Below are positions 8,928-34,923 of a stretch of 34,923 nt of DNA, piece after piece; position 1 is the first letter of the stretch; each line of letters starts with the position of its first letter. The DNA comes from an uncultured Eubacterium sp. GTDB lineage: Bacteria; Bacillota; Clostridia; Oscillospirales; Acutalibacteraceae. The stretch lies in assembly GCA_934512155.1 (NCBI GenBank), contig CAKSWS010000012.1, positions 1-34,923 of the forward strand, in the 5' to 3' direction. A model generated the notes under the pieces. It worked only from the letters and a program-made list of their open reading frames with translations. It searched no databases and was not told the origin of the DNA. Made by a program: the position numbers and the translations under genes.

Positions 8928-8955
8928 TTGACATTTTTTCATTTTTTGATATAAT
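8928..8955 (+). promoter_or_regulatory. Sigma-A promoter of the rplU operon
   Basis: TTGACA (8928-8933), a 16-base spacer and TATAAT (8950-8955). The predicted start is near 8962, at the beginning of the L21-type leader. Confidence 0.8.
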
Positions 8956-8959
8956 AATT

Positions 8960-9036
8960 AAGCCGCATATTGTGGGCTGTTAAGCGGTGCGTTGCACCCG
9001 CCTATTGTAGCGAGTCTGAATAAAGGAAGGTTAACT
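8960..9036 (+). promoter_or_regulatory. L21-type ribosomal protein leader RNA
   Basis: Two hairpins follow the promoter directly: GCC/GGC with CA/TG at about 8961-8976, and GCGGTGC with GCACCCGC at about 8983-9000. The GGAAGG ribosome binding site of rplU comes after them. A conserved leader of this size (L21 leader) is known upstream of rplU in Firmicutes and is thought to bind L21 for feedback control. The assignment rests on position and hairpin layout; no covariance search was run. Confidence 0.55.
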
Positions 9037-22060: not shown

Positions 22061-23107
22061 TTGGGGGTTTTTGAAAATTTAACAGATAAACTTTGCAAAG
22101 AAAACTGCCTTTCTTTTGAAGAGTATAAATTTTTGATTGAAAACAGAGAAAAATGTGCCGATTATTTGTTTGAAAAAGCAAGGTTTGTGCGTGATTCGGT
22201 TTACGGCAAAAAAATTTTTATAAGAGGCTTAATTGAATTTACAAATTATTGTAAAAATGATTGCTACTATTGCGGCATAAGAAAAAGCAATTTAAACGCC
22301 GTAAGGTATCGCCTGTCAAAAGATGAAATTTTACAATGTTGCAAAGAGGGCTATGATTTGGGCTTTCGTACCTTTGTGCTTCAGGGCGGCGAGGATTTGT
22401 TTTATACAGACGAATTGCTGTGCCAAATTGTTGTGCGTATTAAAAACGATTATCCTGATTGTGCCGTAACGCTTTCTTTAGGTGAACGAAGCCGTGAAAG
22501 CTATGAACGGTTAAAAAACGCAGGGGCAGACAGGTATCTGTTGCGTCATGAAACCGTAAACAAAGTTCATTATGAAAGTTTGCATCCTAAAAGTATGAGC
22601 TTTGAAAATCGCAGGCGTTGTTTAAATGATTTAAAAGAATTGGGCTTTCAGGTGGGCGCAGGATTTATGGTTGGTTCACCCGGGCAAACTTGTGATGATT
22701 TGGCAAATGAGATGCTTTATTTAAAAAAATTAAATCCTCAAATGGTGGGTATAGGTCCGTTTGTTCCTCATAAAGATACTGTGTTTGCTTCAAATCCGTC
22801 AGGTACGGCAGAACTTACAGTGTTTATGCTTGGGTTAATCAGATTGACTTTGCCGCAGGTGCTTTTGCCGTCAACAACGGCATTGGGAACAGTAGACCCT
22901 TTGGGCAGAGAAAAGGGAATAAATGCAGGGGCAAATGTTGTTATGCCCAACCTTTCGCCTGTAGGCGTAAGAAAAAAATATATGTTGTATGATAATAAAA
23001 TTTGCACCGGCGAGGAAAGTGCCATGTGCATTGAATGCTTAAAAAGAAGAGTTAAGTCCACAGGTTGTGAAATTGTTACCGACCGTGGCGATTACAAGGA
23101 GATATAA
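22061..23107 (+). CDS. hydE: [FeFe]-hydrogenase maturase HydE (radical SAM)
   Basis: The 348-residue product is a radical SAM TIM-barrel enzyme with the cluster motif CKNDCYYC (Cys64, Cys68, Cys71), a FVLQGGED strand near residue 108 and a VGAGFMVGSPGQT segment near residue 197, as in HydE. HydE builds part of the H-cluster 2Fe subsite from the HydG product. The start is a TTG at 22061; AAAGAGGCGG just upstream supports it, and no ATG is well placed. The stop abuts the hydG start. HydE and the related PylB/BioB enzymes differ mainly by context, which here is decisive. Confidence 0.95.
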   Translation: MGVFENLTDKLCKENCLSFEEYKFLIENREKCADYLFEKARFVRDSVYGKKIFIRGLIEFTNYCKNDCYYCGIRKSNLNAVRYRLSKDEILQCCKEGYDLGFRTFVLQGGEDLFYTDELLCQIVVRIKNDYPDCAVTLSLGERSRESYERLKNAGADRYLLRHETVNKVHYESLHPKSMSFENRRRCLNDLKELGFQVGAGFMVGSPGQTCDDLANEMLYLKKLNPQMVGIGPFVPHKDTVFASNPSGTAELTVFMLGLIRLTLPQVLLPSTTALGTVDPLGREKGINAGANVVMPNLSPVGVRKKYMLYDNKICTGEESAMCIECLKRRVKSTGCEIVTDRGDYKEI

Positions 23108-29998: not shown

Positions 29999-32900
29999 AT
30001 GAAAATTTCTAAATCCAAAAGAATTTTAGCCGTTTTCCTTTCAATCCTCATGGTTATGACATCAATTCCGGTTGTTGCATTCACAGCCTTTGCGGCTGAT
30101 GACAACGATGTTGCCGCAGTTGAAACTGCCATGACCGAATATGAAAAGAAGATGGATGGCACAGTTTACAAAGAAATGTCTAAAGCATACGAGGCTTACG
30201 TTGCTTGCCAGGCTGCACTTGATGCTTACAGGTACGGCGCTGTAACAAATGCTCTTAACGGCAAGGCTGCAGCTTTAACATCTGCCACAACAGATATGGT
30301 TAACAGCGGCACATGGAGCGGTAAGTTTACTACTTCAAACGTGTCTTTCACAATCGGTTCTACAACCACAACAAGTGATAAGATGACTAACCTCGTTTAT
30401 GCAAACAGTGAAAAGAGTACTAAAAACGGATATGGCAGCGGTCTTGAAATAGTTAACGGCGGTGCTATGAAATACGGTGCTCGTATTTATCCGTATTATG
30501 CAGATACTGTTGTTCTTTACAACGGTGATAATACGCCGCCAAGCTTTCCTGTTTCATTGGGTATGGTAAATGACGGCGGTCGTTATAATGTTTACTATGA
30601 ATATGCATATACAGACGGCGATATTCAGTTAAAAGATAACTGGATGGGTTATGTTGACAATAACTTTAGTTGGCCTATTACTTCAACAAGCGGTAACATT
30701 GGTTACAGCTCAAGCAATAAGACAACAAATAAAGTAGTCAGTGATAAAAAAATAACAAAAACCTTTGCTAACGTAATGTATTATACAGGAACTCCGACAA
30801 ATACATTAACTTCAATCACTTCTACTGCTTGGCAGGGTATGATTGACCATAAAAGCCAAACAGGTTCATTTAATTACGGCGATAATACTATTTACGTTTT
30901 GAACACTGTTAACCTTCAAAATGCTATTACAAATGCACTTGCAAAGGTAGAACTTAAAAATGTTTCAGCTTATAAAGAAGGCGGTTTATCAGCAATCTTT
31001 AAAGCTCTTTCAAATGCAATGCAGTTTGATGCAACAAGTTCAAGTTTTGGTTACGACAACGGTGTTGATGCAGGTGCTAATAACTGTAAAGACTCTATTG
31101 ACAACTTAACTTTAGCTCTTAATAACGCAACAGTAGGCACTGCAGATGCAGACAGCGGTTACCAAGCTATTCGTGATGCTATGACATCAGATGTTATTAA
31201 TACATTTAATGCAGGCTCCGAAGGTTACGAAGCGAAATCTTGGGAAAAATTTGAAAATGCATACAAAGCAGCTCGTGACGCTATGGCAAATACTGTAACA
31301 AACGGCTACAATGCATCAAATGCCGCAACATTGGGTAAAAATCTTGTAGATTCATACCCACCTAAATTAACTGCTTCAAAGCAAAACACAGATGCACTTA
31401 TGGCAGTTATAAATAATTTTGAAGCATTAAACAACATCTTTACAGCTGAAAGCTACAGTGCAGCAGCAGAAGTAGTTAAAAATGCAAAAATTGCAATTTG
31501 GGGTTCTGAAGATAAGTACGGCGTTGCTGCGGCAGGTCCGGATGAATCCGAGCAGGCTGCAAAAGATATTGCAGACCAGGTTGCTTTGGTAACAGAAGCA
31601 GTTAAAACATTAAGAATTTCTTCTGCAACAGTTGTTGAAACAACTTACGGCAGATATTCACTTGATGGAGTTATTGCTATAGAAGTAAACGGTTCACTCT
31701 ATAAAAACTATGACGTTTATGCAACAGCAGTTGCAACGGCAGTTGATTTCAGAAGCAGATTAAACACAGCAGAGTTTACAGATTACAACACTCAACTTGC
31801 AGATTACCTTGCAGCGGTTCAGGCTGTTCTTGATGCTTACCATCAGTTAACTTATGCATTTACCTCTATTCCTGACGGCACTGTAACACAAAACAGCAGC
31901 ACAAAGTCTATTACTCCTCTTACTGCTCAAGATCAAGGTTATCAGTATGTAACATTCTCCTATACTGATTCTGCAGTAATTCTTAATATGACTCATGAAA
32001 CAAAGAATATTACATTTGGTAATGCAAATATCAGCTTTGGCACAAATATTAAGGGCAGACCTAATAACATGCTTGACAGTATTTCAATTCATGCCACAGC
32101 ATCTTCTATTTCCGACGGTAATAGACACATAAATTCAAATGGATGGTCAGATACACCTACTGCTCTTACAGATGGTCAAAAGTCAACTTATGCAGGTCAA
32201 CTTGCGTATAACGGATTTGAACTTACAAATCTCAGATGGACCGGTGAAACATCCAACAATGATGCAAACCAAATTATGACTTTGTCTGACGGAACAAAAA
32301 TTACCGATGAAAATCAGGCAAAAGCACAGGATTTAACAGATGCATTAGGCCGTACGGACGGTACAGGCACAACAGATTTAAACTACGGCGGTGTGTTTGC
32401 GAAAACAAATAACAGTGATGCCGCTTACACATATGTTGATGCTGATTTCAATGTAACAGTTAAACCAAATGCAGAAGTAAAGTTAACAAGAACAACGACT
32501 CCTAAACTTATAACCTATCGCCTTAATAACACATATTTCGGCGCAGTAACAGGTTATAACTGCCAAAACACAGCATATTATGCAGGCTACAACTGGTTAA
32601 CTTCAGAGCAAAACAGTGAAAAGCTTAATTCTGTTGTTTATGTAGTTGATGTTTCTTACCTTTTAGACCTTGTTAAGGTTTGCGACGGCATTTTAAATGC
32701 AGGTGCGTTAAATTACACAGCCGACAGCTGGAAAGCATTTACAGAAGCACTTACAAAAGCTAAAGATGATATAAACTACAATAATTTGGCATACACAAAA
32801 ATTCTTTCTGAATGCCAAACAAGATACACAGCACTTTGGGATGCTTACCAAGCACTTAAAGTTAAAGATGTAAAGGTTACATTTGCTTACAAAGATGCAG

Positions 32901-34639
32901 ACGGAAATGACACATCAACTGTTATCACAATTCCGGAAGGCGCAAGCAAGCCTCTCTCAAACGCTCAATCACAAATTGAAGCTATTACAGTTCCTCAGTA
33001 TTCCGCAAACGGTTACACTTATACATTTAAGTCTTGGAATCCGGTTGTAGATTACAGTTACTGCCCTGTAAACGATATTACCTACACTGCAACATATGAT
33101 TCGTTCTCAAGTGTAGATTGGAGCGTTTACAACACAGCACAAACAAATCTTATTAACGCACTTTTAGGTGAAAAATACACCGTTGAAGGTTTGAATGCAA
33201 TTAAAGCAGAAGTTGCTAAATTGGCTTACTTCACACTTTCTGAAACAGAAAAGGGCAAAACAGGTGCTGATAAGCAAGACGCTATTAATGCAGAAGCAAG
33301 TGTAATTGATTCAATTACAGCAATGCTTCCTCAATATATTGCAGATTCAAGCGCATATGACGCTCTTTCAAAATCAGTAGATGTAATTAATGCAGATGCA
33401 TATGACGCAGCAAAGGTTCAAGAAGCTTTTGCAAATGCCAAAACAACAACAGATGTTGAAATCGGCGGCGCAACCTATAAAGGTTATGAATTTGACAGCG
33501 CAATCGCAACTGTTATGAGTGCTATGAGCGACAATGCTTATAAGTATACAGTAATTGCATATGATTTTGGTGATAATCCGTATTATTTAACAAAAGACGG
33601 AACTTATGTTCAGGGTACAGGCGATTCTACCGCTCCTGTTCCGCCAGCCGGAAGAGATGACATTTACTTCCATTACGGCGATGCAGTAACAGCAACAAAC
33701 CCTGTTGATGCAAGCAAGGCGTGCACATTTGAAGTTACCGTTATTGCAAATAAAACAGATGTTGAATCTGAACGTAAATATGTAGGTATGTCAACAGAAT
33801 ATAAATTTAATGTTCGTGGTAACACTTCAATATTTACTTCAGCAAGTGAAAATACGGATATAAATGTTGTTAGATTTGTAGACGGCAGAAATAATCAGGT
33901 TGTTTATGAAACAGTTACTTCAGATTCATTTATTAGACTTAATCAAGTTACTCTTCCAACCGTTCCGTTCTATACACTTTCAAATTACACTGAGTCTTCA
34001 TCAGGCACAACTTACAGAACAAGCGCAAGAGTTGATTTAACATCAAAAGTAACAACACTTGTTGCCAATTACACCGCATCTTCAGAAATCGGCAATTATA
34101 CAATTATTGTTCAAAATGAAGGCGGCAAACAAATTAGTAAGCAAACAGCAGCTTATAACGAAAAAGTTACAGTTGAAGCACCGGGTGCAACAGCAATTGT
34201 TGACACGGCAACAGGCAAAGTAGTTGCCTACGGTTCAACTTACAGTTTCTATGCTTGTCAAGATCTTACTCTTAAAGCAGTTTCATCAGAAACAACAGAT
34301 GTTCAGGTTTCCGTAGTTAAACCTGTAATTACAGATGATATTGTTTACTTCATCGGTCAGTTCGCTGCACCTGAAGGCACAACAATTAAGGGCAAGGGTA
34401 TTGTAATTGATACAAACGGCTTAAATAAGAATTTGACTCTTAAAGATGTTGATTCAGCAAGTCAAGTATACAACATGTCTGTTTCCAAGTTAACATGCGG
34501 CAACCAGTTTACTGCTTATGCACCTATTAATAATGCTGCCGGTTCAACGGTAACTTATGTTGCATATGTAATTTATGTAGATGCTTACGGCAACGAACAA
34601 ATTGCTTACTCTAATGTAGTTGAAGCACAGTTGTCATAA
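29999..34639 (+). CDS. Very large secreted protein with helical (FIVAR-like) and Flg_new/InlB-B-like repeats
   Basis: The 1546-residue product begins with a classical signal peptide (basic KSKR, hydrophobic core 9-28, AFA-type cleavage near residue 32/33). Several segments look like FIVAR-type three-helix modules, each with an aromatic helix start: around residues 33-85, 410-455 (SWEKFENAYKAARDAM), 480-540, 900-955 (SWKAFTEALTKAKDDI), and 1037-1110. Residues about 958-1035 resemble an InlB-B/Flg_new beta repeat. The last 110 residues form a separate beta-rich domain. There is no LPxTG motif, S-layer homology domain or terminal membrane helix, so the mode of cell attachment is unknown. It is rich in Ala, Asn and Thr with very few Cys. 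GGGAGG supports the start. A 44-residue peptide gene follows 17 bases later. Adhesin or glycan-binding roles are only guesses. Confidence 0.85.
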   Translation: MKISKSKRILAVFLSILMVMTSIPVVAFTAFAADDNDVAAVETAMTEYEKKMDGTVYKEMSKAYEAYVACQAALDAYRYGAVTNALNGKAAALTSATTDMVNSGTWSGKFTTSNVSFTIGSTTTTSDKMTNLVYANSEKSTKNGYGSGLEIVNGGAMKYGARIYPYYADTVVLYNGDNTPPSFPVSLGMVNDGGRYNVYYEYAYTDGDIQLKDNWMGYVDNNFSWPITSTSGNIGYSSSNKTTNKVVSDKKITKTFANVMYYTGTPTNTLTSITSTAWQGMIDHKSQTGSFNYGDNTIYVLNTVNLQNAITNALAKVELKNVSAYKEGGLSAIFKALSNAMQFDATSSSFGYDNGVDAGANNCKDSIDNLTLALNNATVGTADADSGYQAIRDAMTSDVINTFNAGSEGYEAKSWEKFENAYKAARDAMANTVTNGYNASNAATLGKNLVDSYPPKLTASKQNTDALMAVINNFEALNNIFTAESYSAAAEVVKNAKIAIWGSEDKYGVAAAGPDESEQAAKDIADQVALVTEAVKTLRISSATVVETTYGRYSLDGVIAIEVNGSLYKNYDVYATAVATAVDFRSRLNTAEFTDYNTQLADYLAAVQAVLDAYHQLTYAFTSIPDGTVTQNSSTKSITPLTAQDQGYQYVTFSYTDSAVILNMTHETKNITFGNANISFGTNIKGRPNNMLDSISIHATASSISDGNRHINSNGWSDTPTALTDGQKSTYAGQLAYNGFELTNLRWTGETSNNDANQIMTLSDGTKITDENQAKAQDLTDALGRTDGTGTTDLNYGGVFAKTNNSDAAYTYVDADFNVTVKPNAEVKLTRTTTPKLITYRLNNTYFGAVTGYNCQNTAYYAGYNWLTSEQNSEKLNSVVYVVDVSYLLDLVKVCDGILNAGALNYTADSWKAFTEALTKAKDDINYNNLAYTKILSECQTRYTALWDAYQALKVKDVKVTFAYKDADGNDTSTVITIPEGASKPLSNAQSQIEAITVPQYSANGYTYTFKSWNPVVDYSYCPVNDITYTATYDSFSSVDWSVYNTAQTNLINALLGEKYTVEGLNAIKAEVAKLAYFTLSETEKGKTGADKQDAINAEASVIDSITAMLPQYIADSSAYDALSKSVDVINADAYDAAKVQEAFANAKTTTDVEIGGATYKGYEFDSAIATVMSAMSDNAYKYTVIAYDFGDNPYYLTKDGTYVQGTGDSTAPVPPAGRDDIYFHYGDAVTATNPVDASKACTFEVTVIANKTDVESERKYVGMSTEYKFNVRGNTSIFTSASENTDINVVRFVDGRNNQVVYETVTSDSFIRLNQVTLPTVPFYTLSNYTESSSGTTYRTSARVDLTSKVTTLVANYTASSEIGNYTIIVQNEGGKQISKQTAAYNEKVTVEAPGATAIVDTATGKVVAYGSTYSFYACQDLTLKAVSSETTDVQVSVVKPVITDDIVYFIGQFAAPEGTTIKGKGIVIDTNGLNKNLTLKDVDSASQVYNMSVSKLTCGNQFTAYAPINNAAGSTVTYVAYVIYVDAYGNEQIAYSNVVEAQLS

Positions 34640-34656
34640 AAGGAGGATTGATATTT

Positions 34657-34791
34657 ATGAAATTAAAGTATGAAGAACCAATGATTGAGATTCGTAATTA
34701 TCGCTTCCTTGCGGACGTTATTACAACACCAAGTGATGCTACAAAGGATCCTGATTTGGGCGACGGCGACGGATTTGACATTTTTGGTTAA
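34657..34791 (+). CDS. 44-residue acidic peptide with YxxP leader-like N-terminus
   Basis: A strong ribosome binding site (AAAGGAGG, 34639-34646) precedes an ATG at 34657 and a 44-codon frame ending in TAA, followed by a terminator; this makes a real gene likely. The product starts KLKYEEPMIEI, passes through RNYRFLADVITTPSD and ends in an Asp/Gly-rich tail (DLGDGDGFDIFG). It has no signal peptide or membrane helix. The N-terminal YxxPxI pattern resembles leaders recognised by RRE domains in lasso and other RiPP precursors, but no maturation gene is in the window. It shares a transcript with the large secreted protein. Function unknown. Confidence 0.75.
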   Translation: MKLKYEEPMIEIRNYRFLADVITTPSDATKDPDLGDGDGFDIFG

Positions 34792-34808
34792 TTTAAAATA
34801 ATCAAAAT

Positions 34809-34842
34809 AAACCACCTTCTCGTAAGAGAGGGTGGTTTTTAT
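34809..34842 (+). terminator. Intrinsic terminator after the 44-residue peptide gene
   Basis: AAACCACC, one T-G pair and TCTC pair with GAGA and GGTGGTTT around a GTAA loop, followed by TTTTATT. Confidence 0.92.
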
Positions 34843-34860: not shown

Positions 34861-34923
34861 TAGCCTCCCTTGTTAAAGGGTTACTCACCACGGTGTGGGG
34901 AGATGCCACGCAGTGGCAGAGGG
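34861..34923 (+). repeat. Partial palindromic, probably dispersed repeat at the window edge
   Basis: The last 60 bases are GC-richer than their surroundings and made of small palindromes: CCCTT/AAGGG (34867-34880), CACC/GGTG (34886-34895) and TGCCAC/GTGGCA (34904-34918). This is the look of dispersed intergenic repeats in clostridial genomes; the element is cut by the window end. Confidence 0.5.

Follow-up and report, generated by a model that had tools for sequence, protein, structure and literature searches.

At the end of a 34,923-nucleotide stretch of DNA from an uncultured Eubacterium sp. of the Acutalibacteraceae (contig CAKSWS010000012.1; this whole stretch is called the window below) lies a gene for a peptide of 44 residues, placed directly behind a gene of 1546 codons that encodes a giant secreted protein. 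The peptide is probably the precursor of a ribosomally synthesised and post-translationally modified peptide (RiPP), matured in trans by a pathway akin to that of the linear polyphosphorylated peptides (LPPs). At the level of sequence, its relatives keep a leader-like N terminus with a YxxP motif, and the genes for a suitable set of modification enzymes accompany them. Among 150 genomes sampled from the family, an HprK-like kinase (profile A5, E≤1e-5) is encoded in all 30 genomes that carry the peptide (E≤0.01) and in 42 of the 120 others, and a stand-alone RiPP recognition element (RRE) of the PqqD type in 30/30 and 50/120, respectively. In several relatives, these enzyme genes stand in compact clusters with members of the peptide family, and the peptides recur immediately downstream of genes for secreted proteins.

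The peptide gene and its family

The ATG of the peptide gene begins 17 nt past the stop codon of the 1546-codon gene (TAA, 34637-34639). An alternative TTG start at 34648, 9 nt further upstream, would make the peptide 47 aa long; the ATG was chosen because of its spacing to the Shine-Dalgarno sequence. The strong ribosome-binding site, the interval of 17 bases and the gene's own terminator had all been described in an initial annotation of the window, and our reading of the sequence agrees. As a scan of the whole window for terminators gave 4 sites against 4.3 expected from shuffled sequence, the terminator site alone proves nothing. The frame is intact in all seven copies treated as syntenic, namely those of the window, L002, L003 and L004, which lie next to argG-argH, and of L119, L120 and L121, which were placed by their partner family and downstream gene (L numbers denote loci and G numbers genomes of relatives). 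Each copy has GGAGG or GGGAGG upstream and, just downstream, a hairpin with a T-run that differs in sequence from copy to copy. In three paralogue pairs, all from genome G097, dN/dS is about 0.2 (0.065/0.28, 0.15/0.80 and 0.14/0.65). The 44-codon frame is a real gene, as the initial annotation had thought likely; homologues exist and their frames are unbroken, the two points on which that annotation had said its reading could fail. A chance open reading frame (ORF) was rejected in view of the recurrent pairing with secreted proteins and the intact syntenic frames; that the gene is a pseudogene, or a fragment of the giant protein's C terminus, was rejected in view of its own ribosome-binding site and its membership of a separate family. 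Rfam gave no match at the peptide locus, and tblastn none in phages and plasmids.

A protein search with the single window sequence returned two near-identical entries, and Pfam and NCBIfam gave no match for the window peptide. With a profile (A3), relatives were found in 50/150 genomes of the family sample at E≤1 and in 30/150 at E≤0.01, while a class-wide sample held the peptide in 51/391 genomes (E≤1e-3). A search of 5.8 billion protein sequences gave 129 relatives at E≤1, the few named ones being hypothetical proteins. The consensus of a 66-member alignment (A4, from which the three divergent members L162, L167 and L170 were excluded) reads MKxxYxxPExExxxFxxxDVITxS and is followed by a variable acidic tail. 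YxxP is the most conserved feature (YxxP in 63/66, FxxP in 1/66; Y kept in 65/66, P in 64/66), with the Ser in 63/65 and the Asp before VIT in 52, although the family was gathered with a profile that rewards the leader stretch, so that leader conservation is partly built in. The window peptide has KYEEPMI at this place, and the initial annotation's match of KYEEPMIEI to the YxxPxI/L pattern of RiPP leaders thus falls on the part of the family that is best kept. In the tails of the 66 members, 25 % of the residues are acidic, 3 % are basic and none is Cys; an aromatic residue occurs among the final three positions in 40/66. No member reached a family model; weak best matches include lasso precursor models. 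In the class-wide sample, single genomes hold many copies, at least 18 matches in G374, 17 in G516 and 16 in G178 (all lower bounds), each with one or two kinase matches.

Lanthipeptides, sactipeptides and ranthipeptides, RiPPs that are built on Cys, were rejected, given the Cys-free tails of the 66 aligned members; Cys-bearing relatives had been set aside as divergent. These are the longer peptides of L162 (9933-10169, +; 79 aa) and L170 (9705-9953, -; 83 aa), which adjoin an RRE and a gene that looks like a radical S-adenosylmethionine (SAM) enzyme (CNFNCKMCY / CNFNCPMCY), and which possibly belong to a different RiPP class with a related leader.

Modification enzymes in related genomes

The co-occurrence of kinase and peptide persists when the eight genomes that supplied the kinase profile are left out (22/22 against 42/120). 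Across the 391 class-wide genomes, the kinase is found in 50/51 genomes with the peptide (E≤1e-3) and in 65/340 others; three of the 391 overlap the family sample, and their exclusion gives 48/49 and 64/339. The 80 genomes with a stand-alone RRE are the 91 with any match minus 11 whose sole match sits in a frame of more than 200 aa.

The seven nearest relatives that bear the peptide (G002, G003, G004, G005, G031, G044 and G081) each encode one kinase, two or three stand-alone RREs, three or four nucleoside triphosphate (NTP) transferases of the NTP_transf_5 family and one Ser/His peptidase, with an ATP-binding cassette (ABC) transporter gene directly behind the latter in 7/7 by eye. The enzyme genes are scattered over these genomes: the kinase gene adjoins a dinB-like gene in G002, G004, G031 and G081 and lies near an NTP_transf_5 gene in G005, and one RRE gene adjoins an NTP_transf_5 gene in six of the seven, G081 being the exception. 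No enzyme genes lie beside many of the peptide copies, and this holds for the window copy as far as the window reaches. The initial annotation had suggested a search downstream of the peptide; RRE genes do exist in the relatives, but in the nearest peptide-bearing genomes they are located elsewhere. The closest relative by argH, G001, has neither the peptide nor any RRE, kinase or peptidase, and the same is true of G011; each has one NTP_transf_5 gene, and both assemblies may be incomplete. The names argG, lepA-like, dinB-like, prephenate-dehydrogenase-like and ABC were given to genes by eye. Behind the peptidase and ABC genes, all seven nearest peptide-bearing genomes also have a gene of 564-570 aa (L300-L306), the start of which is glycoside-hydrolase-like (EYPRPQF.R.S...LNG.W).

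In other relatives, the same genes are drawn together. L137 has the order large protein, peptide, HprK-like kinase, RRE, Ser/His peptidase and NTP_transf_5, and L129 and L154 have peptide, kinase, ABC transporter, RRE and peptidase. Kinase, RRE and peptidase accompany the peptide in L142, L161 and L173; in L164 the gene list shows kinase, peptidase and transferase, and the RRE search places an RRE between them. Among class-wide loci, with genes named by eye, L381, L382 and L384 combine kinase, RRE, peptidase, ABC transporter and a transferase-like gene, and L385 has this set without the ABC gene. Of 22 peptide places picked by eye for comparison, 12 lie within 5 kb of an RRE, two of these 12 being weak (G014:C47, E 0.0455; G046:C33, in-frame stop).

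Pfam matches to cluster genes were clear for PqqD (1.5e-15), NTP_transf_5 (PF14907; 4e-37 and 1e-37) and ABC_tran with ABC_membrane. Kinase and peptidase were identified because of their motifs and gene order. Nine kinases have the consensus motifs SGTGKSTH (P-loop) and NDDKP, and 14 aligned peptidases have an invariant Ser (GxSMxP), an invariant His (LHR) and a GD. This Ser/His pattern is that of SipW-type signal peptidases. Of the searches against solved structures, one returned nothing, and the RRE gave weak matches to B1-type lasso proteins, the best being TfuB1 (E 0.031).

Secreted partner proteins

Pairing with a secreted protein recurs well beyond the window. Of 67 peptides, 36 follow, at a distance of no more than 100 nt, an ORF that is 600 residues or longer and has a start resembling a signal peptide; the same holds for 8/1146 background genes taken from 91 loci around argH and RRE genes. 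The median gap is 17 nt among the 39 peptides with a signal-like neighbour of any length. The 64 rows from which the set of 67 was built comprise the places with E≤0.011, apart from G046:C33, whose match contains an in-frame stop, together with three weaker places located on these contigs and five from another search; G024:C98:5433, an 8-aa row with an in-frame stop, was then dropped, and the window, L002, L003 and L004 were added to the 63 rows left. A later set of 42 places from 11 other genomes, a non-random choice of hand-picked high-copy genomes and places near a kinase, gave 29/42 within 100 nt of a signal-like ORF of any length (median 629 residues), against 93/1146 by the same looser test. 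In the remainder, four neighbours were cut by contig ends, four were absent, four had no signal and one lay beyond 100 nt; the L386 peptide was misread by the script as a wrong 5-aa frame. The home-made rule used to call signal peptides overlooks proteins whose ORF extends too far at the N terminus, probably including those of L119, L137 and L145. The initial annotation's pairing of the peptide with a large secreted protein therefore stands as a recurrent arrangement and not as a universal one, as some peptides have no secreted neighbour.

The partners themselves are diverse, 48 of them sorting into 20 groups, and in several groups the common part is a C-terminal module. In G097, the partners have their last 229-316 residues in common (46-81 % identity), and in G374, a match of 85-120 residues, placed at the C terminus or close to it, was seen in 7/45 partner pairs. 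In G178, where 14 places were fetched and 13 with a partner compared, two tail types comprise six peptides each, and one further peptide fits neither: K[WY]LG closes every partner that precedes the first type, and [FY]EG stands near the end of every partner that precedes the second; tail type thus agrees with the partner's C-terminal type in 12/13 pairs, the 12 that could be classed, with classes assigned by eye after the data had been seen. The G178 partners also have signal stretches in common, and some are alike over much of their length. A functional coupling of peptide and secreted protein is plausible from these comparisons.

Two variants of the arrangement were noted. In L173 (G147:C8; partner -1099 to -38, peptide 1 to 114), the partner's end DEGWSDWWTPEY resembles the peptide's end DKGWSDWWTPEF. 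In L126 and L132 (both G031), the peptide lies between a secreted protein of 916/989 residues and a lipoprotein-like gene of 182/181 residues, with gene ends that overlap or nearly do so, making a three-gene variant.

The window's argH, used as a close-relative marker, led to related genomes that preserve the gene order argH, argG, giant protein, peptide (L002, L003 and L004); the giant-protein orthologues at the argG-argH place there have 35, 26 and 35 % identity, respectively. By eye, L119-L121 hold the same giant family and the same downstream prephenate-dehydrogenase-like gene as L003 and L004. Pfam and NCBIfam detected no domain in the 1546-residue partner, and a search for it in genome and viral contigs gave no match. 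Its last ~250 residues match, and match only there, the partners of L123, L128, L135, L136 and L147 (27-30 % identity), and a gene of the peptide family follows all five. AlphaFold models the last 247 residues as all-beta except for one short helix (predicted local distance difference test score, pLDDT, 61). Three more partners match the window giant at the signal stretch only.

Proposed pathway, known systems and rival explanations

In the pathway that we consider likely, the leader YxxPxI...F/Y...DVIT would be bound by a PqqD-type RRE that stands alone and whose gene lies at another place in the genome. The HprK-like kinase would then phosphorylate the near-invariant Ser at the leader/core border, Ser26 in the window peptide, and one of the several NTP_transf_5 enzymes may decorate the phosphate. 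By analogy with LPPs, from which we also infer the position of the leader/core border, the SipW-like Ser/His signal peptidase would remove the leader with a cut near V21-I22-T23, and the MsbA-like ABC transporter encoded beside the peptidase would export the acidic tail. Co-expression with the secreted protein upstream would serve a joint extracellular action of the two products, with the protein's C-terminal module as its likeliest means. Taken further, this would make a genome-wide two-part system in Clostridia, composed of secreted and frequently giant proteins that bear one of a few C-terminal modules, each co-transcribed with its own RiPP precursor; a single enzyme set would phosphorylate, trim and export the precursors in trans, and each mature peptide would dock to, anchor or gate the matching module. 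We put forward this extension tentatively, as a possibility short of an even chance. If true, it would be a protein-sorting or assembly system with a modified peptide as the address label.

LPPs are described, in the sections of the paper drawn on here, as peptides of unknown function whose clusters contain one to three precursors and often adjoin capsule loci in Bacilli; an RRE binds the YxxP leader, LppK phosphorylates Ser3, and LppS, which is SipW-like, cleaves after Thr-1 (Popov et al. 2026, PMC13381572). Short precursors with a conserved N terminus, YxxP and a variable tail are common to both families on that description, as is a gene set of discrete RRE, HprK-like kinase, Ser/His peptidase resembling signal peptidase I, MsbA-like transporter and NTP transferase. 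Here, [Y/W]xxP is found in the window peptide, and RRE, kinase, peptidase, NTP transferase and ABC transporter in its relatives. By our own count from the published leader, YxxPxVLxHQxIxFETxxS (PMC13381572, same sections), the Ser lies 18 residues past the Tyr, and in our family 16-21 residues, mostly 19. Differences are as evident. The peptide family, with its leader YxxPxIEI..F...DVITTS, matches that consensus at no more than YxxPx[hydrophobic], an aromatic residue and the final Ser; the hosts are Clostridia rather than Bacilli; the precursors are scattered, with at least 18 matches in one genome, and the enzymes often split over the genome; and the precursors tend to follow a gene for a secreted protein. 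The main text of the LPP paper has no instance of the words Clostridi, Ruminococc, surface or secreted (PMC13381572). By analogy, the window peptide very likely works like an LPP, but we do not file it as one because its leader departs from the full consensus and the RRE and peptidase are unassigned to clades.

Prochlorosin-type lanthipeptides likewise have many scattered precursors and one modifying enzyme acting in trans. They resemble the present family in precursor number and in-trans modification, and differ in the Cys of their tails, in leader and enzymes, and by the pairing with secreted proteins seen here. In sortase and type 9 secretion systems, different cargo proteins carry a common C-terminal module recognised by one system; here, by contrast, the common factor would be a separately encoded modified peptide, and Pfam showed no known anchor domain in the window giant. 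New in the present case is that the precursors are numerous and scattered, arranged in trans to the enzymes, and paired with secreted proteins, among which several have C-terminal modules in common. Among the titles and abstract starts listed by searches of open papers, none described such a layout. An LPP-like pathway in Clostridia with secreted partners makes function testable, since the partner shows where to look. It would be an unusual RiPP case, tied to the biology of secreted proteins and not to antibiosis, and many genes of 35-80 residues that now lack annotation would gain a function.

Several observations weigh against the pathway or against the coupling to a partner. Enzymes in the window's own genome are inferred from its relatives. 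Profile support for two of the enzymes is slight, with Hpr_kinase_C at 0.0036 in one of three kinases scanned, AAA_18 at 0.091 in another and nothing in the third, and with Peptidase_S24 at 0.013-0.015 in two of three peptidases and just DUF6039 (0.057) in the third. The co-occurrence counts ignore the relatedness of the genomes, so that the Fisher value for the kinase in the family sample (5e-12) overstates certainty and is indicative. At the weak peptide threshold of E≤1, the kinase is found in 41/50 genomes and missing from 9/50, and class-wide G417 has the peptide with no kinase match. Conversely, 28/150 genomes have a strong kinase (≤1e-50), and 42 a kinase at E≤1e-5, with no peptide at E≤0.01; G010 has RRE, kinase, peptidase and transferase and no peptide at E≤0.05, and G008 a peptidase match and transferase with neither kinase nor peptide. 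HQ and FET of the LPP leader consensus are absent from the peptide family. As to the partners, 9/67 peptides lack an ORF of 120 aa in the 300 nt before them (two or more of the nine being near a contig end), and some follow ordinary genes. Partner matches within G002, G003, G034 and G044 are not C-terminal, and the partners of L156, L175 and L177 match the N-terminal part of the window giant, not its C terminus.

A lasso precursor, whose tail would be cyclised by an asparagine-synthetase-like lasso cyclase after a cut by the transglutaminase-like B2 protease, would have the identical leader motif [Y/W]xxPx[hydrophobic], and weak profile matches point the same way: NF033528 in 4/66 members (best E 0.02), NF033524 in one (E 0.16) and PF19397, which we take to be a lasso precursor family, in one (E 0.093). 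A discrete RRE is also found in phosphorylated lasso clusters of the paeninodin type (PMC13381572, in the sections drawn on here), together with an HprK-like kinase and a nucleotidyltransferase (PMC13381572; PMC7533575, again in part), and the excerpted text of a lasso survey reports that many rumen genomes encode HPr kinase, PqqD and nucleotidyltransferase (PMC7533575). Those clusters differ in their WxxP leaders, lasso cyclase and B2 protease. The B2 family (PF13471) passed its cut-off in 1/150 genomes, in a frame of 861 aa, and on this test a lasso peptide was rejected; weaker matches in 35/150 (E≤0.01) were almost all to part of the profile, in frames of 260-860 aa. The protease's place in the clusters is taken by the Ser/His signal peptidase, and inspection of the listed clusters by eye showed no cyclase-like gene, no cyclase search having been made. 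A lasso product is thus highly improbable. The initial annotation's reading of a RiPP leader survives, with kinase and RRE in every peptide genome (E≤0.01) of the family sample, and nothing was seen of the lasso peptide to which it had compared that leader.

It is also improbable that the product is an unmodified small protein, such as a secretion helper, chaperone or antitoxin-like partner of the giant whose motif binds something else. The recurrent neighbourhood with secreted proteins would suit such a role, as would the many scattered copies, the window's among them, that have no adjoining enzyme gene, but neither the genome-wide dependence on kinase and RRE nor the compact enzyme clusters at the same peptide family would be expected. 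A more serious rival, which we consider a reasonable possibility while leaning away from it, accepts the RiPP and takes the secreted protein for a mere transcriptional neighbour, the peptide being a free signal or bacteriocin timed with surface proteins. The large number of partner groups, the peptides that lack a secreted neighbour and the want of any function for LPP products in the printed sections drawn on here (PMC13381572) all favour it. Against it stand the agreement of tail type and partner C terminus in G178 and the fact that several partners in G374, in G097 and in the window group are alike over 85-316 residues at the C terminus and hardly anywhere else, although block duplication of a C-terminal module together with its peptide would give the same pattern.

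Coordinates of the peptide gene and of its partner are collected in Table 1.

Table 1 Features of the peptide gene and its secreted partner in the window
Feature	Position	Strand	Basis and remarks
Partner gene, 1546-codon secreted protein without known domain	29999-34639	+	Sequence; orthologues
Signal-peptide-like N-terminal stretch of partner, MKISKSKRILAVFLSILMVMTSIPVVAFTAFAA	29999-30097	+	By eye and home-made rule; similar in orthologues
C-terminal module of partner, residues ~1291-1541	33869-34621	+	Common to five otherwise different secreted proteins
Shine-Dalgarno AAGGAGG	34640-34646	+	Sequence; counterpart in 7/7 syntenic copies
Peptide gene, putative RiPP precursor, 44 codons, MKLKYEEPMIEIRNYRFLADVITTPSDATKDPDLGDGDGFDIFG	34657-34791	+	ATG at 34657, stop 34789-34791
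Conserved leader-like part, residues 1-23	34657-34725	+	Conservation in alignment of 66; includes D20-V21-I22-T23
Y5 of YxxP	34669-34671	+	
P8 of YxxP	34678-34680	+	
Ser26, putative phosphorylation site	34732-34734	+	Aligned with near-invariant Ser (63/65 rows); analogy with LPP Ser3 (PMC13381572, in part)
Variable tail, putative core; acidic, Gly/Asp-rich, aromatic-ended	34735-34788	+	Alignment
Intrinsic terminator (hairpin + T-run) closing the partner-peptide unit	34809-34838	+	Terminator scan; counterpart in 7/7 syntenic copies

Among other features of the window, an ordinary ribosomal protein L21 leader (RF00559) lies at 8951-9027, and a HydE-type radical SAM maturase for [FeFe] hydrogenase, unrelated to the peptide, is encoded at 22061-23107. 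The stretch at 34861-34923, TTTAGCCTCCCTTGTTAAAGGG..., of which the window has one copy, looks like an interspersed repeat; its core also occurs behind another relative's peptide (L177, 6206-6226; L087 and L287 show this same place).

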